Part shown: piece after piece, positions 2,340-15,808 of the stretch
How the letters are laid out: each line of letters begins with the position of its first letter
How positions within the stretch are numbered: the stretch's first letter is position 1
Source of the DNA: Chryseobacterium pennipullorum
Lineage (GTDB): Bacteria > Bacteroidota > Bacteroidia > Flavobacteriales > Weeksellaceae
Length of the DNA stretch: 64,000 nt
Assembly: GCF_003384725.1 (NCBI RefSeq)
Contig: NZ_QNVV01000025.1
Coordinates: 1 to 64,000 of the forward strand
Direction: 5' to 3'
Notes under the pieces: model-generated
Database searches by the model: none
The model's input: the letters and a program-made list of their open reading frames with translations, nothing else
Told to the model about the DNA's origin: nothing
Position numbers and translations under genes: made by a program

Positions 2340-2407
2340 TGTTGCTAATTTACTAATTTTTACGAGATTCTGTCTTGGAATGGTATGAAAATGGAAGGAT
2401 AGCTGAC

Positions 2408-2842
2408 ATGAAAAAAATACTGTGGTCACTTTTGGCTGTTTTATCCTTAGGTATTGTTTTGAATTGTTCATCAGTACCCACGAAAAATCCGTACCTCCAG
2501 AGACAGTGGATGCTGGTTTCCCTGGATGGTTTTTCAAAAGATCAGCTGATCGCTAATAAGGCAGAATTCAATCTGACGGGCAAAATGGAAAATAATAAAA
2601 TTCAGGCAAGTGCTTATATGGGATGCAACCAAATGTCTATCCCTGTTGAATTCAGGAATAAAGGAAAGGTGAAAATTTCACAGGGAATCAGTACGATGAA
2701 AGCCTGCCAGGACATGAAGCTGGAATCTGCTTTTGGCAAAATAATCGGGACGATGACCAACTATTCCGTGGAAGGACATTTTCTAACCCTGTCTGATGAT
2801 AAGGGGAATTCAATGAAGTTTGTTGCAGCAGACTGGGATTGA
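2408..2842 (+). CDS. META domain (HslJ-like) lipoprotein
   Basis: A 144-residue predicted lipoprotein. I chose the ATG at 2408, 33 bases inside the longest frame, because it begins directly with a lysine-rich signal peptide (MKKILWSLLAVLSL) ending in a lipobox around LNCSS. The rest is one META/HslJ domain: the MGCNQMS segment, then ISTMKACQDMKLESAF, then a final beta hairpin with LTLSDDKGN. In other bacteria this fold is found in HslJ (novobiocin resistance, envelope stress), but the molecular function is not settled. It probably sits in the outer membrane facing the periplasm. It is transcribed divergently from the S46 peptidase and ended by a strong hairpin shared with the convergent gene downstream. 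Confidence 0.85.
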   Translation: MKKILWSLLAVLSLGIVLNCSSVPTKNPYLQRQWMLVSLDGFSKDQLIANKAEFNLTGKMENNKIQASAYMGCNQMSIPVEFRNKGKVKISQGISTMKACQDMKLESAFGKIIGTMTNYSVEGHFLTLSDDKGNSMKFVAADWD

Positions 2843-2863
2843 TCCATCAGGTTTACAATATAA

Positions 2864-2892
2864 AAAGTCCGCTTTTTGGCGGACTTTCTTTG
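2864..2892. terminator. Bidirectional terminator between convergent genes
   Basis: A perfect 9-bp stem (2864-2872 with 2879-2887) around a short loop. A T-rich tail follows on the plus strand (TTTCTTT) and another on the minus strand (TTTTTA). It can end both the META lipoprotein and the small repeat protein at 2936-3352. Confidence 0.8.
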
Positions 2893-2935
2893 TGTTGAAA
2901 AAAATCTGTTTTGGTTATTAGTTTTTGAGGGATTA

Positions 2936-3352
2936 TTAGTTTTTAGGAATTGTTTTTTTTATTTCCTCCAGGGTTGCGGTATTGCGCAGCCCGGTAACTG
3001 TCGTATTTGTGTTCCTAGAATTTGATGGATTTCGGTATGCCTGTCTGTTGGGAATTGTTTTTTTAATCTCTTCAAGGCTTGCGGTGCCGGGAATAAGCTT
3101 TCCGCTATTGTCATCTGATCCTTTAGGCTTTTGTTCCTGTTTCTTTACTTCAAGCCCATAATCAGAGACCAACCCTGTCTGTGGGGTTTTCTTTTCTGCT
3201 GCTTCCCGGGCTTCCTGCATCTGTTTTGCTTCCTGTTCTTTTGCCTGTTTCAATACCGCTGCCTGATCTTCCATTGGCGGAGTCTGCTTATTTTCCTGAG
3301 CGTACATAATGGAGCTCAGCACAAATAGCGGGATGATATATATTGTTTTCAT
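2936..3352 (-). CDS. small secreted Lys/Gln-rich protein with a C-terminal repeat
   Basis: Not recognised as a known family. The 138-residue product starts with a signal peptide (residues 1-19, cleavage near MYAQ). A Gln/Glu/Lys/Ala-rich, probably helical segment follows at about 20-55. The C-terminal half carries two near-identical motifs, TASLEEIKKTIP at 90-101 and TATLEEIKKTIP at 125-136, spaced 35 residues apart by a Ser/Asn/Arg-rich linker. The gene starts 6 bases after the stop of the 849-residue repeat protein and is probably cotranscribed with it. A role next to that surface protein is a guess from position only. Confidence 0.6.
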   Translation of the reverse strand: MKTIYIIPLFVLSSIMYAQENKQTPPMEDQAAVLKQAKEQEAKQMQEAREAAEKKTPQTGLVSDYGLEVKKQEQKPKGSDDNSGKLIPGTASLEEIKKTIPNRQAYRNPSNSRNTNTTVTGLRNTATLEEIKKTIPKN

Positions 3353-3358
3353 ATAAGA

Positions 3359-5908
3359 TTATTTGATGTTAACTAGGACCTGAATTTTTCCTACTTCTTT
3401 TTGGTTGTAATCCTGAAGCGCTTTTCCGATGACCTGCCCGATTTTTACCTTTTTGATATTGGCTTTCATGGCAACCCCTGCTTTAGAAGAGGTCACCAGA
3501 AGATCACCTCTTTTGATGCTGCCGTTCTCAAGACATACTTTCGTTGGAATCACGCCAATGACTCCCATCGGCGCTTTATCAGAAATATCAGTGTCAATGT
3601 GCTCTTCGGTAAGAAGTACTCCCGGTTTGGTAGCATATACGCCTGCAACAAGGCTGGAGTATGGAGTGGAAGATTTCTCAACTGTTCTGTCAGTACTGGT
3701 AGAGATGACAAGTACATCTCCCGGTTCATATCCGGAAATTGCTCCTTTTACATCAAATGCTTCGGCAACGTCGGCACCACTATTTTGTGTACCCCCGTTG
3801 AAAAAGCCTCTTCCAGCCTTATTGATCCGCGCTGTATTCACTGAGGCACTTTGGTAGACCGCAATATTACCAGAAGGTCCCTGATGGTTCACAAGAAGGG
3901 TATTTCCGGTACCGTTAGTGGTTACATGTACTACGGGCTGGCCATTGCTGGCATTGAAATTGGCAAATCTTCCTGCTTTACCAGTCCCGAAATTAGGAAT
4001 GAATCCCGACACTGCATTACCGCTGCCATCACAGGATGCTTCAATCCCATCACCTGTTCCGCCGGCATTTGCCGTAATCCCGTTTCCGCCTCCTTCTGTT
4101 AAGGCAAGTATAGCAGGGCCGTTTCCTGCAGGATTGGATGCGTAGAATAAGCCACCATATCCACCGGTTCCCGACGACAGACCATAGATACCCGCCGTTC
4201 CGAAATTCGCAAACATGGAATTCACTTCCCCTTTCACTGCAGCAGACGTTGCTGTATTTTTGTCTACTTTAAAATTTCCTGCAATACCATTTCCTACGGT
4301 GGTTACGGTGATCACATCACGGGTATTGTTCTCATTAAAAATATCAAATTTTCCAGCCCGTCCGGTAGCAAAGGTAGGTACCCAGGCGTAAAGAGCATTT
4401 CCGGCTCCGTCTATATTGGTTTCTACCCCGTTTCCGTCTTTACCTGCATTGGCTGTGATCGCATTTCCGTTTCCGTCTGTAAGGGCAATCAGGGAAGCCC
4501 CGTTTCCGGCGGGATTGGAAGCATAGAATAATCCTGCCCGCCCTCCGGTACCTGATGAAATACCAAAAATACCTGCCGCGCCAAAGTTTCCGAATATGGT
4601 GTTTACTTCCCCTCTTACCGCGGCTCCCACGCTATTGCTGTTGTCTACGAGGAAAGAAGCTGCGTTGCCTTGTGTATTATCGGGAATGTTTCCGTTTCCA
4701 TTGGTTTCTACTTCAAAAGTATTATTGGTCGTATTGGTTTGATTCAGGTTTTCAAACCTTCCGGCCCGTCCTGTACTGTTATTTGAACCCACCTGTCCCA
4801 AAACACCTATTCCTGTTCCGCTGGTATTGGTGGCAATAAATCCTCTTACCCCATATCCGCCGCCATCATTTCTTCCCACTACGGCTCCTGCAATGTCACT
4901 TGTTGTTCTTCCTACAATGGCCTCACCTGCACCATTGTTATCTCCTACAATACCGGCAGAAGTCTGTGAAGACGTTATTCCCTGTACTCCGAAACCACCT
5001 CCTGTAGAACTTCTTAAACCGGCACCGTTTCCGGTGGTTGTGATATTCACGACCGTACCGTTACCTACTGTGGAGGCAGTAAAGGCACTGTTGTTGTTGG
5101 CATTGTTGAAAATAGCAACATTCGCGGCAACACCGGTGTTGCTGGTCGCATTGAGTCCTGTTCCGCTGTTGCTGTTCGCGTATACTCCATATCCGTTTCC
5201 TGAGGAATTTCCATAGACTCCCAATCCGTTAGGGGTGCTGCCGTATACGCCCCATCCGCTTCCGTTCTGGCTTCCGTAGACTCCTACACCAAGTCCGCCG
5301 GTTCCGTTATTGATACCGCGTACTCCTGAGGAAAAACCGCCGGGAGAGGTACTTGTAACAAGTCCCCGCACTGCTGCAATATTGGATGTTGTAGTGGTGT
5401 TACTCCCTTCCAGGGAAGTACCGTCGCCGTCATTAGCTAAAGAAAACAATGTGCCGGCATTATTAACTGTTGACGAATAAGGAATAGTAAAAGTTCCCCC
5501 ACCGCCGCCGGCAGATTTTGCATACATGGCGTAAGGTACACTTAAGAGCTGGCTTGTTCCGGCAATCGTATAGTTTGTTCCTCCTGCCGGGTCGGTCTCT
5601 GTTTTTAAATAATAGTTTCCTGAAGGCCAGTTGATTGAGGCGAATGTCCCTGATAAAACAGTTCCTGTTCCGATTTCCAGGCTGATAAGACCATTCGCGT
5701 TGGTGTTTCCGGTAAGTCTTTCAGCATATACCGCAGCACCGGCAGGTGATCCCTGCAGTACACTTACTTTTACTGCAACACTCTGATTCGTCAGAAGCTG
5801 TCCGGAGCCGTTTCTCATGACGGCCTGGTAGCTCATTTTTTCCGGTACCTGCGAAAGTCCCATAAAGAAACCAAGCAGGATCCAGCACAATAGTAATATT
5901 TTTTTCAT
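3359..5908 (-). CDS. large secreted Gly/Asn-rich repeat protein, fibre-like
   Basis: An 849-residue exported protein of unknown function. A signal peptide at about 1-19 is followed by a domain typical of Bacteroidota secreted proteins (PEKMSYQAVMRN to SVPYAMYAKSAG, about 22-133). A long Gly/Asn/Thr-rich part with GVYG-type short repeats then runs over about 140-680, and within it two clear 127-residue copies start at about 429 (AAVRGEVN) and 556 (AAVKGEVN). The last 150 residues are not repetitive and include GADVAEAFDV and GYEPGDVLVIS, resembling the C-terminal caps of tail-fibre-like beta-repeat proteins. No T9SS sorting domain is visible. It lies 4 bases after a T9SS cargo gene and 6 before the small repeat protein, so the three form one operon. 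An adhesin-like surface fibre is my inference. Confidence 0.8.
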   Translation of the reverse strand: MKKILLLCWILLGFFMGLSQVPEKMSYQAVMRNGSGQLLTNQSVAVKVSVLQGSPAGAAVYAERLTGNTNANGLISLEIGTGTVLSGTFASINWPSGNYYLKTETDPAGGTNYTIAGTSQLLSVPYAMYAKSAGGGGGTFTIPYSSTVNNAGTLFSLANDGDGTSLEGSNTTTTSNIAAVRGLVTSTSPGGFSSGVRGINNGTGGLGVGVYGSQNGSGWGVYGSTPNGLGVYGNSSGNGYGVYANSNSGTGLNATSNTGVAANVAIFNNANNNSAFTASTVGNGTVVNITTTGNGAGLRSSTGGGFGVQGITSSQTSAGIVGDNNGAGEAIVGRTTSDIAGAVVGRNDGGGYGVRGFIATNTSGTGIGVLGQVGSNNSTGRAGRFENLNQTNTTNNTFEVETNGNGNIPDNTQGNAASFLVDNSNSVGAAVRGEVNTIFGNFGAAGIFGISSGTGGRAGLFYASNPAGNGASLIALTDGNGNAITANAGKDGNGVETNIDGAGNALYAWVPTFATGRAGKFDIFNENNTRDVITVTTVGNGIAGNFKVDKNTATSAAVKGEVNSMFANFGTAGIYGLSSGTGGYGGLFYASNPAGNGPAILALTEGGGNGITANAGGTGDGIEASCDGSGNAVSGFIPNFGTGKAGRFANFNASNGQPVVHVTTNGTGNTLLVNHQGPSGNIAVYQSASVNTARINKAGRGFFNGGTQNSGADVAEAFDVKGAISGYEPGDVLVISTSTDRTVEKSSTPYSSLVAGVYATKPGVLLTEEHIDTDISDKAPMGVIGVIPTKVCLENGSIKRGDLLVTSSKAGVAMKANIKKVKIGQVIGKALQDYNQKEVGKIQVLVNIK
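3863..4624 (-). repeat. two tandem 381-bp coding repeats
   Basis: Inside the 849-residue protein, residues about 429-555 and 556-682 are two aligned copies of a 127-residue unit. Shared landmarks are A-A-V-(R/K)-G-E-V-N, GLFYASNPAGNG, ITANAG and TG(R/K)AG(K/R)F. The two copies abut at about 4243/4244. Confidence 0.75.
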
Positions 5909-11457: not shown

Positions 11458-11492
11458 TTGTAAGAATGTAAAGTCAGAATTAAGTAATTTTG
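11458..11492 (+). promoter_or_regulatory. promoter of the DUF4836-like cluster
   Basis: A TTG (11458-11460) and a perfect -7 element TAATTTTG (11485-11492) are separated by 24 bases, near the 17-23 usual for Bacteroidota promoters. The first gene of the cluster starts 17 bases downstream. Confidence 0.5.
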
Positions 11493-11508
11493 TGTTTTAA
11501 ACCCAAGC

Positions 11509-12177
11509 ATGAAAAAAATTCTCCGACTCTGTATTCTGTTTCTTCCCTTATCCATTCTTACCAGTTGTTTCGATATCCTGGACAAAGTCAACGTAAAAGC
11601 TGATGGAACAGGAGAATATACGCTGATTCTCAATGCCAGCAAAAGCAAAACAAGACTGGCTTCCATCGCTAAAATGGAAACCATTAATGGTAAAAAAGTT
11701 CCTAAAAAATTAGAAATTGAAAATAAAATTAATGAGGCAGCGAAGATTTTTAAAGGAACTCCAGGAATCAGCAACGTAAAAACAGCGATGGATTTTGATA
11801 ATTATATCATTAAACTGAGCTGTAGTTTTAATAGAATTGAGAATATCAATACCGGACTGGAGAAACTGAAGACTCAGCATATTCTGGGCAAAATGATTCC
11901 GACGGAGATCTACGGCCAGAACCTTCAAAAAAAGACCTTGACAAGAAATAAAGTCAATACTTTCAAAACAGATTATGATAAAATGAGCAAGGCTGACAAA
12001 GAGGTGTTTAATGGAGCCAGATATACCTCGGTCATGCAGTTTGAAAACGCGGTAAAATCTCAGACAAATACTTCTTATCTTCTTTCCCCTAATAAAAAAG
12101 CGCTCAAGCTGGAAGCTGATATTTTAGATCTGATTCTTCAGAAAAAGCAAATACAAAACACGATCACTTTTCAATAA
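11509..12177 (+). CDS. hypothetical lipoprotein, first gene of the DUF4836-like cluster
   Basis: Not recognised. A 222-residue predicted lipoprotein with a signal peptide ending in the lipobox ILTSCFD. The mature part opens with VNVKADGTGEYTLILNASKSK, a beta-rich stretch seen in many Bacteroidota lipoproteins, then a Lys-rich helical region with KLEIENKINEAAKIFKGTPGISNVKTAMD and a second sheet region. The C-terminus is again helical and Lys-rich. It is followed after 7 bases by the 673-residue secreted protein and shares its promoter. I infer that the three gene products act together in the periplasm or outer membrane, but no activity can be assigned. Confidence 0.65.
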   Translation: MKKILRLCILFLPLSILTSCFDILDKVNVKADGTGEYTLILNASKSKTRLASIAKMETINGKKVPKKLEIENKINEAAKIFKGTPGISNVKTAMDFDNYIIKLSCSFNRIENINTGLEKLKTQHILGKMIPTEIYGQNLQKKTLTRNKVNTFKTDYDKMSKADKEVFNGARYTSVMQFENAVKSQTNTSYLLSPNKKALKLEADILDLILQKKQIQNTITFQ

Positions 12178-12184
12178 ATCAACC

Positions 12185-14206
12185 ATGAAACCAATCATAT
12201 TAAAAGCACAAAAAATTATATTCCTGATCTTTGGCTGCACGCTTGTTCTTGCACAAAACAGCATGAAGGTTCCCCAGGATGCCGTATTTTATATGGAAAT
12301 CAACGGAAAACAGCTGAACAACAAAATCAACTGGAATAAACTTAATCCGTTGTTGCATGAACTCAGTAAAAAAAGTAAGGAGAAACCGTCATGGACGGAT
12401 TATTCTAAAACCGGAATTAAGTATGATGCTGTGCAGTATCACTATGCCAGCTTTAATGATTCTATTAAAACATACAACACGCATTTTATAATCGATAATC
12501 AGGAAAAATTCAGAGAGTTCATCAATTCGGTTAAGAAAAAAGGACTGGAAATTTCCAGGAAAACCAATTATTCTTACGTTGATATCGATGACGATATCTT
12601 TGTGGCCTGGAATGGAAGCCGTGCTTTTCTTAGTATGGTTAGCTACACAAAACCTTATAAAGATGTATGGGCTGAAGAAGCGGTGACCGACAGTACAGCG
12701 GTAATGGCAGACAGCAATGAAGCAGTATCTGTGGATTCGGTATATGCCGACGAAGCTGAAAAACCATTCGATTATAAAGAAGAAATAAAAATTCTTAGAG
12801 AAGATATTAAGTACCTGAGAGAGCAAATTAAAGATAATAATCAGCAGATTGTCAAAATACAGAAAGATATCAAATATCTGGAAAAGCACCATCAGTATCC
12901 GAAAGTAAAGGAAAGTCCTGAATCCTTACAAGAAGAAGAGGAAAATATCGCTAGGATAGAAAAGGAGAATGAAGAAGCTGAAAAGGCTTATCAGAAAGAA
13001 CAGGACTCTATCCGCATTGAGAATTTTAAAGTTGTGAAAAAGTATGTAGAAGATCGGTTCGATCAATATTTCAGCTCCAATCTGGAAGTTGAAGCTTCCA
13101 AAGAGATGACCGCCTTCCGGGATGCTAGTTCTGATGTTTTTGTTCATATGGATTATGGAAGGATTGTGAATGACGGTATTTATGGTAAAATGGTGAATCG
13201 TTATGACTTTGCACAGGTTTTTCAGAACGTGTACAACTCAAACTATGCCTATAATCTTTATTTTGATAAAGACAAAGTACGGCTGATCAATAATTATCAG
13301 CACAAAAATGCTGATATTCAGAGAAATATATCTTCAGTTTATAAAGGAAAGAAAAATAAAAAGCTGCTGGAACTGATCAGTGAAAAAAGTGTTGGATACT
13401 ATGCCCTCAATGTAAACGGGGCCAAATGTTTTGATGTACTGTACAGCCTTCTTCAGGATTCCGGGGAAAGTAAGTATAAAAAGGAGATGGAACTTATTAT
13501 GGAGACAACGAAAATTGTTCTGGATGAAGAAGCTATTGCCAGAATTGCACCTGGAAACGGAATATTTGTTTTAAATGAGCTGAAGTCTAAAAAAGTAGAG
13601 TATACTGACTATGAATATGATGATGAATACAATGAAAAAGAAGTGAAAAAAACTAAAGATATTGCTGTTCCCAACTTTACTTTTGCATTCGCAACGGAAA
13701 ACGAGGGGTATTGGAACCGGATTTTTACTCTGTTGACGACCAATAAAAAGCTTGGAAAAAAGTTCACGAAAAAAGGAAGCTTTTATACGTTTAAGGACGA
13801 GAACAGTAAAGGATACCTGGATGAGATCTACTTTACGGTGAAAGACGGTATCGTTTATCTCATGAGTTCTACAGACAATATCCTGCCTGGATCCCAATCT
13901 GAAGTTTCCAGAAAATGGGCAAAAGATTCAGCTAAATATCCTTTATCCGGAAGGCTGGATCTTCAAAAGCTGTTAACGGGTCTGGAGAAAGAATTCAAAA
14001 GTCCTTCAGAAAGAAAGACATTGGATATCGTCAGAAAAAATGTGGGCGAACTGTATTATAAAACGGAAGTAAAAGGGGAGAGTATCCAGACCGAAATGGA
14101 TTATAAAATCAAAGAGGGCTCTGAAAACAGCCTGATGTACTTCTTTGATTTATTTGATCAGATTTTCAAAACTAAAGAAGCCGAAAAGAAACCGCAAATA
14201 TTGTAA
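12185..14206 (+). CDS. DUF4836-like secreted protein with a long coiled coil
   Basis: A 673-residue exported protein of unknown function. After a signal peptide (about 1-23) the domain begins MKVPQDAVFYMEINGKQL, the pattern of DUF4836 proteins of Bacteroidota. Residues about 200-290 are a long charged coiled coil (EEIKILREDIKYLREQIKDN and following). A later segment, YEYDDEYNEKEVKKTKD followed by AVPNFTFAF, matches SYGYDDDFNEIEKKTIQ followed by VQPNYIFDL in the next gene, so the two are diverged paralogues. There is no sorting domain or C-terminal anchor. Its stop codon abuts the ATG of the next gene. The DUF4836 label is by resemblance, not a search. Confidence 0.65.
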   Translation: MKPIILKAQKIIFLIFGCTLVLAQNSMKVPQDAVFYMEINGKQLNNKINWNKLNPLLHELSKKSKEKPSWTDYSKTGIKYDAVQYHYASFNDSIKTYNTHFIIDNQEKFREFINSVKKKGLEISRKTNYSYVDIDDDIFVAWNGSRAFLSMVSYTKPYKDVWAEEAVTDSTAVMADSNEAVSVDSVYADEAEKPFDYKEEIKILREDIKYLREQIKDNNQQIVKIQKDIKYLEKHHQYPKVKESPESLQEEEENIARIEKENEEAEKAYQKEQDSIRIENFKVVKKYVEDRFDQYFSSNLEVEASKEMTAFRDASSDVFVHMDYGRIVNDGIYGKMVNRYDFAQVFQNVYNSNYAYNLYFDKDKVRLINNYQHKNADIQRNISSVYKGKKNKKLLELISEKSVGYYALNVNGAKCFDVLYSLLQDSGESKYKKEMELIMETTKIVLDEEAIARIAPGNGIFVLNELKSKKVEYTDYEYDDEYNEKEVKKTKDIAVPNFTFAFATENEGYWNRIFTLLTTNKKLGKKFTKKGSFYTFKDENSKGYLDEIYFTVKDGIVYLMSSTDNILPGSQSEVSRKWAKDSAKYPLSGRLDLQKLLTGLEKEFKSPSERKTLDIVRKNVGELYYKTEVKGESIQTEMDYKIKEGSENSLMYFFDLFDQIFKTKEAEKKPQIL

Positions 14207-15439
14207 ATGAGCAAGAGGAAGATAATTGTCCCGTTGATTATAGTACTGGCCGCAGTAGTGTATTTCCTGTTTTTTCATAAAGATAAAACCTTGAAATTTA
14301 TTCCTGAAAATGCAGATGCGGTTGTTGTAATTGATATAAAGAAACTGACGAGGCAATATATCTTCAGCCTGGCAACACATCCTTCGCGGTGGTCGGCAGG
14401 CAGTGATAAAAATAAAAATGCTGTTTCGCTGAAGGATTCAGGAATCAGAGTTCCGGATTTTTTGCAGGTTTTTCATCTTAAAGATACGCATTTCTCTCAA
14501 TGGTATAGTGTTCTGGAACTTAAAGACCGTGAAAAGTTCATTACCTTCTTAAAAAAGAATAAATTTGAATATCAAGGCAGTAATCGTTTTCAGAATGGTG
14601 AAATTTTTATTGTGCTGGACGGTAAATACTGTATTCTTGGAACTTCCGGCTTTGCTTTTGAAGACATAAGACAGCACCTTCTACAGGGCTCAAACCGGAT
14701 GATACATGCAAGTCAGCTGATGGGTGCTACTGTGGGTAGCCTCTCTTTCATATCCGGGAAGAAGATCCAGAGCTTTTCAATTGAATTAAAAGATAACGCA
14801 ATTGAAATTAAAAGCCCCTTCAAAAAGGTTCCGCCTCAATTGTCAGCCGGTTTGGAACAGAGAAATCATTTCCTGGAAATGGAACTGGATGCGGAAAATA
14901 TAAAAAAAGGATCCCGTTTTTTCAGTAAAAATCTGATTGATTCCTCACAGATTACTTACTTCAAAGCGACTGCTGATCTGGAACAGATAAATGATACCAT
15001 CATCAGTTATGGTTATGATGACGATTTTAATGAAATCGAAAAAAAGACCATTCAAAAGATTGTTCAGCCCAACTATATTTTTGATCTTGAAAGCAGAGAT
15101 CCTGACAGAACATGGGACTATTTCCAGACTAAGAAATGGATCAATGCCCGGAATGAATTCACGGTAATTCCTTTCCAGCCCAATACTATCATAAGAAAAA
15201 GCCAGGGCCTCATCATAAAATCTCTGGGGAGGCCTGTTTCTGTTACGGCCGGGTTAAAAGAAAATTATATCTTTATCAAAAATTCCCCTTTGCTCCTTTC
15301 ATCCTTTAAAAGCCTTAGTGAAGCAGAAAAGAAAATGCTTGCGGACATCGATTTTATAACTTATAGAAACCAGGCAGAATACTATGGGTTGAAAATACAG
15401 GTAAAAGAGGGAAATCTTCCATTGATTTTAAGATGGTAA
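14207..15439 (+). CDS. membrane-anchored DUF4836-like paralogue
   Basis: A 410-residue protein with one N-terminal membrane helix (residues about 5-22, IIVPLIIVLAAVVYFLFF) that likely anchors it with the bulk in the periplasm. The body starts LKFIPENADAVVVIDIKKL, as in DUF4836, and shares the YxYDDxxNExE...KKT...PN(F/Y) block with the preceding gene, but it lacks that protein's coiled coil. Its ATG directly follows the stop of the preceding gene, a strong sign of coupled expression. A secreted and an anchored form of one fold side by side suggests partner proteins, which is inference. Confidence 0.65.
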   Translation: MSKRKIIVPLIIVLAAVVYFLFFHKDKTLKFIPENADAVVVIDIKKLTRQYIFSLATHPSRWSAGSDKNKNAVSLKDSGIRVPDFLQVFHLKDTHFSQWYSVLELKDREKFITFLKKNKFEYQGSNRFQNGEIFIVLDGKYCILGTSGFAFEDIRQHLLQGSNRMIHASQLMGATVGSLSFISGKKIQSFSIELKDNAIEIKSPFKKVPPQLSAGLEQRNHFLEMELDAENIKKGSRFFSKNLIDSSQITYFKATADLEQINDTIISYGYDDDFNEIEKKTIQKIVQPNYIFDLESRDPDRTWDYFQTKKWINARNEFTVIPFQPNTIIRKSQGLIIKSLGRPVSVTAGLKENYIFIKNSPLLLSSFKSLSEAEKKMLADIDFITYRNQAEYYGLKIQVKEGNLPLILRW

Positions 15440-15469
15440 CCATGGAAACCATAAAAATGTATATTATTG

Positions 15470-15808
15470 ATGGCTCCTTCAGACATTGCACTTCTTAAGA
15501 CCTTTACGCATTATTTTTTGCATCTGGTTTTTCCCGTTTTTATCTCATTGGTTTTTTTTCGTAAAAACTGGAAGAAAGCCTATCTGATTATGTTGGCAAC
15601 AATGCTTGTTGATGTAGATCATTTATTTGCCAATCCTATATTTGATCCGTCAAGAAACAGCATAGGATTTCATTTTTTTCACTCTTATTATGCCATTGCG
15701 GTGTATTTTTTGCTGCTCTTTTGTAAAGGGAACATCAGAATTGTAGCGGTAGGACTTCTTTTTCATATGTTAACTGATTTTCAGGACTTTAATTTCTGGT
15801 GTCATTAA
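15470..15808 (+). CDS. small polytopic membrane protein (DUF6122-like)
   Basis: A 112-residue integral membrane protein. I took the ATG at 15470 over a TTG one codon upstream. Three to four hydrophobic segments carry conserved polar residues in a metal-site-like pattern: TFTHYFLH, MLVDVDHLFANP, FHFFHSYYA and FHMLTDFQDF. This His/Asp arrangement resembles the YdjM/DUF457 family of membrane-embedded putative metal-dependent hydrolases, and I believe the group is catalogued as DUF6122. Function is unknown. It follows the DUF4836-like cluster by about 30 bases and may be its last gene. Confidence 0.65.
   Translation: MAPSDIALLKTFTHYFLHLVFPVFISLVFFRKNWKKAYLIMLATMLVDVDHLFANPIFDPSRNSIGFHFFHSYYAIAVYFLLLFCKGNIRIVAVGLLFHMLTDFQDFNFWCH

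Follow-up and report, generated by a model that had tools for sequence, protein, structure and literature searches.

A conserved three-gene envelope operon of Bacteroidota encoding a lipoprotein and two DUF4836-like paralogues with a predicted TP0453-like fold

Lol transport comprises an inner-membrane component, a soluble carrier, and an outer-membrane lipoprotein receptor, and the movement of lipids and lipoproteins through the periplasm of Bacteroidota is largely inferred from E. coli. A second point of reference lies outside both groups. The sections of PMC5421087 that deal with TP0453 of Treponema pallidum describe five amphipathic helices in an alpha/beta/alpha fold, report that insertion of the protein into membranes or bilayers raises permeability (interpreted there as porin-like), and propose that TP0453 carries lipids and glycolipids as the outer membrane is made; in the portions of PMC3406077, PMC4377024, and PMC10353723 that name it, TP0453 is used or merely cited. 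For the two Pfam families that concern us here, a search of the open literature for the single term DUF4836 and a term search for DUF6122 each returned no occurrence of the name.

We analyzed a 64,000-nucleotide stretch of Chryseobacterium pennipullorum DNA (the window; positions 1 to 64,000 of contig NZ_QNVV01000025.1), in which ORF reading places four co-directional genes, P1, P2, P3, and P4, within 11458-15808 (Table 1). A sequence-only reading had described them as tightly packed, 7, 0, and about 30 bases apart, and the recomputed gaps of 7 (P1/P2), 0 (P2/P3), and 30 bases (P3/P4) agree. The flanking genes encode a Na+/H+ exchanger, a DNA alkylation repair protein (AlkD), and a member of the Na+/Ca2+ exchanger family; the upstream Na+/H+ antiporter, present in Chryseobacterium and (another one, recognized by eye) in L161, looks coincidental as a partner. 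Pfam and NCBIfam searches returned no credible family for P1, P2, or P3 of the window, and we take as chance both the P2 hits to coiled-coil families in these searches and the weak family rows for P1, for example DUF1307.

Table 1. Features of the P1-P4 region, in window positions
Feature	Position	Strand	Description
TAATTTTG, TAnnTTTG match	11485..11492	+	upstream of P1
P1	11509..12177	+	222-aa lipoprotein; lipobox LTSC; D-x-SG motif
P2	12185..14206	+	673-aa secreted DUF4836-like protein, predicted TP0453-like fold
P2 helical hairpin	12773..13072	+	residues 197-296, low-confidence central loop; AlphaFold
P2 long beta-hairpin	13556..13693	+	residues 458-503, acidic tip YEYDDEYNE
P3	14207..15439	+	410-aa DUF4836-like paralogue, N-terminal membrane anchor
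P3 N-terminal membrane helix	14219..14278	+	about residues 5-24, follows K/R; AlphaFold helix 4-22
P3 long beta-hairpin	14951..15094	+	residues 249-296, acidic tip YGYDDDFNE
P4	15470..15808	+	112 aa from ATG 15470; DUF6122 small membrane protein

Synteny and co-inheritance of P1, P2, and P3

In an evenly drawn sample of 148 family genomes from 33 genera (counts ignore relatedness), P2 is present in 32 genomes belonging to 7 genera and P1 in 34; the 32 strong P1 hits are exactly the 32 P2 genomes, and the other two, both in genomes without P2, are weak (1.2e-4 and 1.3e-4). Searches find P3 in 31 of the 148, and we assign a 32nd (genome G071, locus L048) by its position and by the sequence block discussed below; this candidate pairs with the P3 of G016 at 100/100 in the tree, and is matched by the wide profile A7, which includes that very sequence. 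The order P1-P2-P3 holds in all 20 fetched family loci, drawn from seven genera (18 were found by BLAST, L049 by profile at 3.1e-6, and L048 by the position and block of P3), and the order P1-P2-P3-P4 in 79 of the 80 close loci (the best 80 of 109; 79 titled Chryseobacterium and one Weeksellaceae), the exception being L107, where a contig ends near the P2 start. Wider P1 profile searches matched 43 of 246 order genomes and 49 of 296 phylum genomes (20 of these 49 below 1e-30), and 38 wider loci were fetched. Among these 38, P1-P2-P3 occur in order at nine loci outside the family, in four other families (L161-L164 in f3, L200-L202 in f17, L203 in f18, and L198 in f20). In 16 trio loci, with ORF starts set mechanically, neighboring genes range from overlapping by as much as 65 bases to lying 190 bases apart. 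Rather than being usually apart in other genomes, an outcome that would have counted against the sequence-only reading, the three genes are adjacent over wide distances. We conclude that P1-P2-P3 is a co-inherited envelope operon, well supported by synteny and co-occurrence.

P3 is not obligatory, since L165-L169, all from genus g35 of f3 (presumably Flavobacterium), carry P1-P2 and no P3, and a wide P3 profile found no P3 in ten g35 genomes carrying this P1, among which P2 was observed beside P1 at these five loci; the P3-profile matches in g35 are three that coincide with the observed or expected place of P2, plus a stretch of 32 residues at E 0.088.

The P2s of L048 and L049 (genus g17, within the window's own family) are 22-25% identical to the window P2. 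In the tree, P2 and P3 of both loci group with the other-family versions and not with the window's, which suggests that lineages may also have exchanged the whole module. Divergence is faster in P3 than in the adjacent genes: the window and L031 are 57% identical in P3, 78% in P2, and 85% in P1.

The transcription unit most likely begins at P1, because a match to TAnnTTTG, which we take to be the Bacteroidota -7 promoter element, is found mainly ahead of that gene. Among the best 80 of 109 loci, the motif lies at most 100 nt upstream of P1 in 64/79, with 52 hits at -25 (the window copy is at -24), compared with 1/80 for P2, 2/80 for P3, 10/80 for P4, 2/79 for the Ca2+ exchanger downstream of P4, and 4/79 for AlkD; random windows give 92/1600, a background that the P4 frequency slightly exceeds. 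In Chryseobacterium, P4 may be read through from the P1 unit.

Cys20 of P1 is invariant across alignments, and a profile search found no credible PDB homologue of this protein. With P1 as the outsider, hhalign gives E 0.011 against P2 and 0.0043 against P3, values that lie below the reversed controls and come from matches restricted to the signal/anchor region; since a short hydrophobic match can reach such values, the idea that P1 shares the P2/P3 fold is unsupported. L204 has a strong P1 and no P2 or P3 match at the locus. Broader P1-related lipoproteins of 228-319 aa, with no P2/P3 match alongside, occur in L170-L180 and L205-L209, and 4 of these 16 loci have two P1-related genes.

Paralogy and predicted folds of P2 and P3

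When P2 is compared with P3 by BLASTP, the sole significant match (12/25 identical, E 4e-4) is the block on which the sequence-only reading had based their kinship, YxYDDxxNExE followed by KKT and PN(F/Y). Its further proposal, that the two are diverged DUF4836-like paralogues, is borne out by hhalign comparisons, the E-values of which are single-comparison values. Specifically, i) profiles made up largely of family members give a weak match confined to the N-terminal lobe (probability 46%, E 2e-4); ii) widened profiles (20 P2 and 17 P3 rows) match each other across 421 columns with probability 99.2 and E 3.1e-19; iii) with the shared block removed, a match persists in the N-terminal lobe, across 132 columns (probability 96.6, E 5.8e-10); and iv) reversed controls give 0.12 and 0.039, and ten column shuffles at least 0.44. 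The rows of the widened profiles were chosen for spread, and draw on the window, 7 of the 20 family loci, 3 of the 5 loci with P1-P2 only, each of the nine other-family trio loci, and 7 of the 8 genomes with a DUF4836 hit (L198 being counted as module).

The DUF4836 label itself holds through distant relatives only. The seven DUF4836 proteins outside the module align by hhalign with P2 at E 1.3e-31 and with P3 at E 5.5e-16 (reversed controls 0.48 and 0.26, respectively), and in L198 both adjacent genes exceed the DUF4836 cut-off (37.8 and 29.3 bits against 27); one of the 14 members of set A1 also matches, at 2.9e-15. The Pfam model (PF16120) leaves P2 and P3 of the window unmatched, and has no match anywhere in the window's own genome. 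In a maximum-likelihood tree of 40 rows, which leaves out P2 and P3 of L034 and L202, the P2s form one group (93/86) and 14 of 15 P3 rows another (100/99); the tree does not place the P3 of L198, which sits on a long branch, and P3 overall requires two changes, with the root undefined. A single old duplication preceding the split of the families fits these alignments and the tree best, and it is well supported that P2 and P3 are full-length, old paralogues and relatives of DUF4836.

DUF4836 matches are found in 8 of 247 phylum genomes, one of which is L198, with the module. In 6 of the 7 outside-module loci (L191-L195 and L197), an ABC ATPase followed by a protein of about 400 aa lies directly downstream of the DUF4836 gene; the ATPases are about 215-230 aa and match ABC_tran in 6/6 (Pfam), and the ~400-aa permease is above the FtsX cut-off in one case, has a sub-cut-off FtsX match in four, and has none in L192. 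At L196, BLAST found neither ABC gene within the 10.5 kb fetched. The DUF4836 lipoprotein, ABC ATPase, and ~400-aa protein together make a candidate ABC system of the FtsX type that has a lipoprotein of its own.

P2 has a signal peptide that terminates in ...LAQ (in all 20 P2 rows a small residue and Gln close the signal, and some, including the window, have a Cys inside it), and P3 begins with a hydrophobic helix, in keeping with the earlier view that one is secreted and the other anchored. The AlphaFold model of P3 (mean pLDDT 83.6, pTM 0.77) consists of helix 4-22, an alpha/beta body, and the long hairpin 249-296; that of P2 (mean pLDDT 74.7, pTM 0.69) has comparable elements plus two long helices, 197-235 and 248-296. 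The long coiled coil that the sequence-only reading had given to P2 and withheld from P3 survives in part: the models predict a helical hairpin in P2 only, and a crude periodicity test favors heptads in helix 197-235 and not in 248-296. This segment is an acidic, low-complexity stretch in L048 and L049, so not every P2 has the helical hairpin.

As to the long beta-hairpin, its P2 tip in the alignments, by eye, reads [YF]x[YFW][DEN][DE], then one or two more residues and an aromatic, in 20/20 rows, and the P3 tip reads [DN]D[DN]F in 17/17, preceded by an aromatic pair in 16/17; the loose tip regex also matches beyond the hairpin in some P2/P3 rows, and the motif was therefore counted by eye there. 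A looser pattern is found in 0/7 of the DUF4836 proteins outside the module. An acidic tip that is module-specific, yet common to P2 and P3, suggests a shared binding partner.

By sequence, phmmer and profile searches of the PDB found no credible solved-structure homologue of P2 or P3, and by structure Foldseek found no PDB match at E < 0.001 for either model; TP0453 ranks first in Foldseek for P2 (E 0.022, prob 0.99) and second for P3 (E 0.056, prob 0.69), and the PCNA rows for the P3 model we take as chance. Unrelated folds would have counted against the sequence-only reading; compared with the PDB by VIA-align, both models have TP0453 as their best match: P2 aligns with Z 10.9 and rmsd 4.1 over 225/247 residues (next family Z 6.7), and P3 with Z 8.1 and rmsd 7.0 over 191 residues (next family 4.8), a Z close to the background described for VIA-align. 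As modeled, the resemblance appears good for P2 and borderline for P3 taken alone, but sequence homology ties P3 to P2; for both, the predicted fold is alpha/beta with two lobes and resembles Treponema TP0453. The observation from which this work began is confirmed, and its interpretation is partly supported, in the paralogy, the anchoring, the hairpin of P2, and the linkage of the first three genes but not in the inclusion of the fourth.

A possible carrier and its alternatives

We tentatively propose, at somewhat less than even confidence, that P1-P2-P3 is a trans-envelope carrier of lipid or lipidated cargo. We infer a carrier function, together with its cargo, direction, and contacts, along the following lines: i) P3, anchored in the inner membrane, would take the lipid or lipidated cargo into its fold; ii) P3 would hand this cargo to its soluble sister P2, which would cross the periplasm; iii) P1 would be the outer-membrane lipoprotein receptor that accepts it; iv) the acidic hairpin tip of P2 and P3 might be a docking or hand-over surface, possibly calcium-loaded; and v) the helical hairpin of P2 could set reach or orientation. 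Counted in favor are the operon, the paralogy, and the VIA-align match of both models to TP0453, together with the ABC ATPase and permease pair that follows outside-module DUF4836 lipoproteins in 6/7 loci. The strongest counter-evidence is that one lineage has no P3, that the fold match of P3 is weak (its Z near background), and that the function of TP0453 is itself proposed; also counted against the carrier are the mean pLDDT of the P2 model (74.7), the lack of a Foldseek match under E 0.001, the place of TP0453 below the first P3 row, and the lack of a DUF4836-linked permease in the 34 module loci. A more ambitious version, that this is an undescribed Bacteroidota carrier pathway in which a duplicated TP0453-like pair (anchored P3, soluble P2) delivers to an outer-membrane lipoprotein, with the DUF4836 branch doing a related job alongside an FtsX-type ABC system, strikes us as doubtful, though worth stating.

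The same parts could instead make a structural tether, with P3 in the inner membrane, the P2 hairpin, and P1 in the outer membrane forming a static spacer or bridge that maintains or senses the distance between membranes and moves no cargo. In favor of such a bridge are the anchors of P1 and P3, the helical hairpin of P2, and inheritance as an operon; however, coiled-coil character is not conserved in the hairpin segment (witness the acidic low-complexity stretch of L048 and L049), and genus g35 has no P3, which would break the bridge. We regard the tether as rather unlikely, if the best of the alternatives to a carrier.

Unlikely, too, is an assembly chaperone, in which P2 and P3 would assist one particular envelope complex or outer-membrane protein in the manner of PsbP-like factors. 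Residues 25-301 of P2 resemble entries that we take to belong to a small lipoprotein or PsbP-like class, and also one chain from an assembly intermediate of photosystem II, with Z 5 to 7, but these values are within the range that the tool describes as common, and the loci with ORFs listed have no regularly adjacent client gene beyond the trio.

It is improbable that P2 and P3 serve an ABC transporter encoded elsewhere, of the FtsX/LolC or Mla type. Besides the ABC ATPase and ~400-aa permease that follow DUF4836 in 6/7 outside-module loci, two isolated module loci have ABC neighbors: in L049 a LolD-like ATPase (4120-4788; 251 bits, below the 307.75 cut-off) adjoins P3 on the opposite strand, and in L198 an MlaE permease (PF02405, 1.8e-66) with its ATPase (together 2362-3869) lies about 2.7 kb downstream of P3; two cases in 34 loci are leads rather than a pattern. 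Against a dedicated transporter, a related ATPase is found in only 4 of the 34 module loci (fetched stretches) and the DUF4836-type permease in none of them, and the window's own genome has one weak match to that permease, at E 5.6e-4.

P4 is a DUF6122 protein (PF19617; E 2.5e-36, 124.7 bits against a cut-off of 27), and DUF6122 is found in 86 of the 148 family genomes, in one of which (G030) it and the trio are on different contigs. That P4 acts together with P1-P3, perhaps in the role of a metal-dependent membrane enzyme, is very improbable: P4 does adjoin P3 in the same direction in 80/80 close loci (best 80 of 109), and DUF6122 is present in 28/32 genomes with the module, but it is also present in 58/116 without the trio, missing in 4/32 with it, and inside the locus, adjoining the trio, in just 15/20 fetched family loci, a distribution independent of the trio that leads us to place P4 outside the core of the module.

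Comparison with described systems

We wish to stress that a conserved, patchy operon with a lipoprotein and two paralogous proteins of apparently carrier-like fold is a concrete and removable test case, and that the predicted resemblance to TP0453 would be the first structural lead for DUF4836.

The closest relatives by sequence are the DUF4836 proteins outside the module, with which P2 and P3 share full-length profile homology. The two groups differ in their surroundings and in detail: the seven DUF4836 proteins that we read all have a lipobox-like Cys (7/7 by eye), whereas P2 and P3 have no lipoprotein signal; they do not have the acidic hairpin tip of P2 and P3; and six of the seven precede an ABC pair.

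By predicted fold, the closest described protein is TP0453 of the syphilis spirochaete (PDB 3k8g-3k8j), to which both models align best. TP0453 is an outer-membrane lipoprotein consisting of a single chain of about 250 ordered residues; compared with it, P2 adds a 100-residue helical insert and P3 a membrane anchor, and searches with P2 and P3 found no sequence match to the TP0453 PDB chains.

By proposed division of labor, the closest described system is Lol. The P1-P2-P3 operon differs from it in having no ATPase; Pfam and NCBIfam searches found no LolA, LolB, or LolCDE family match for P1-P3, and the one sign of LolA is a weak Foldseek row (6fhm, prob 0.25). The likeness is one of roles: the inner-membrane component, soluble carrier, and outer-membrane receptor of Lol parallel those that we propose for P3, P2, and P1, respectively.
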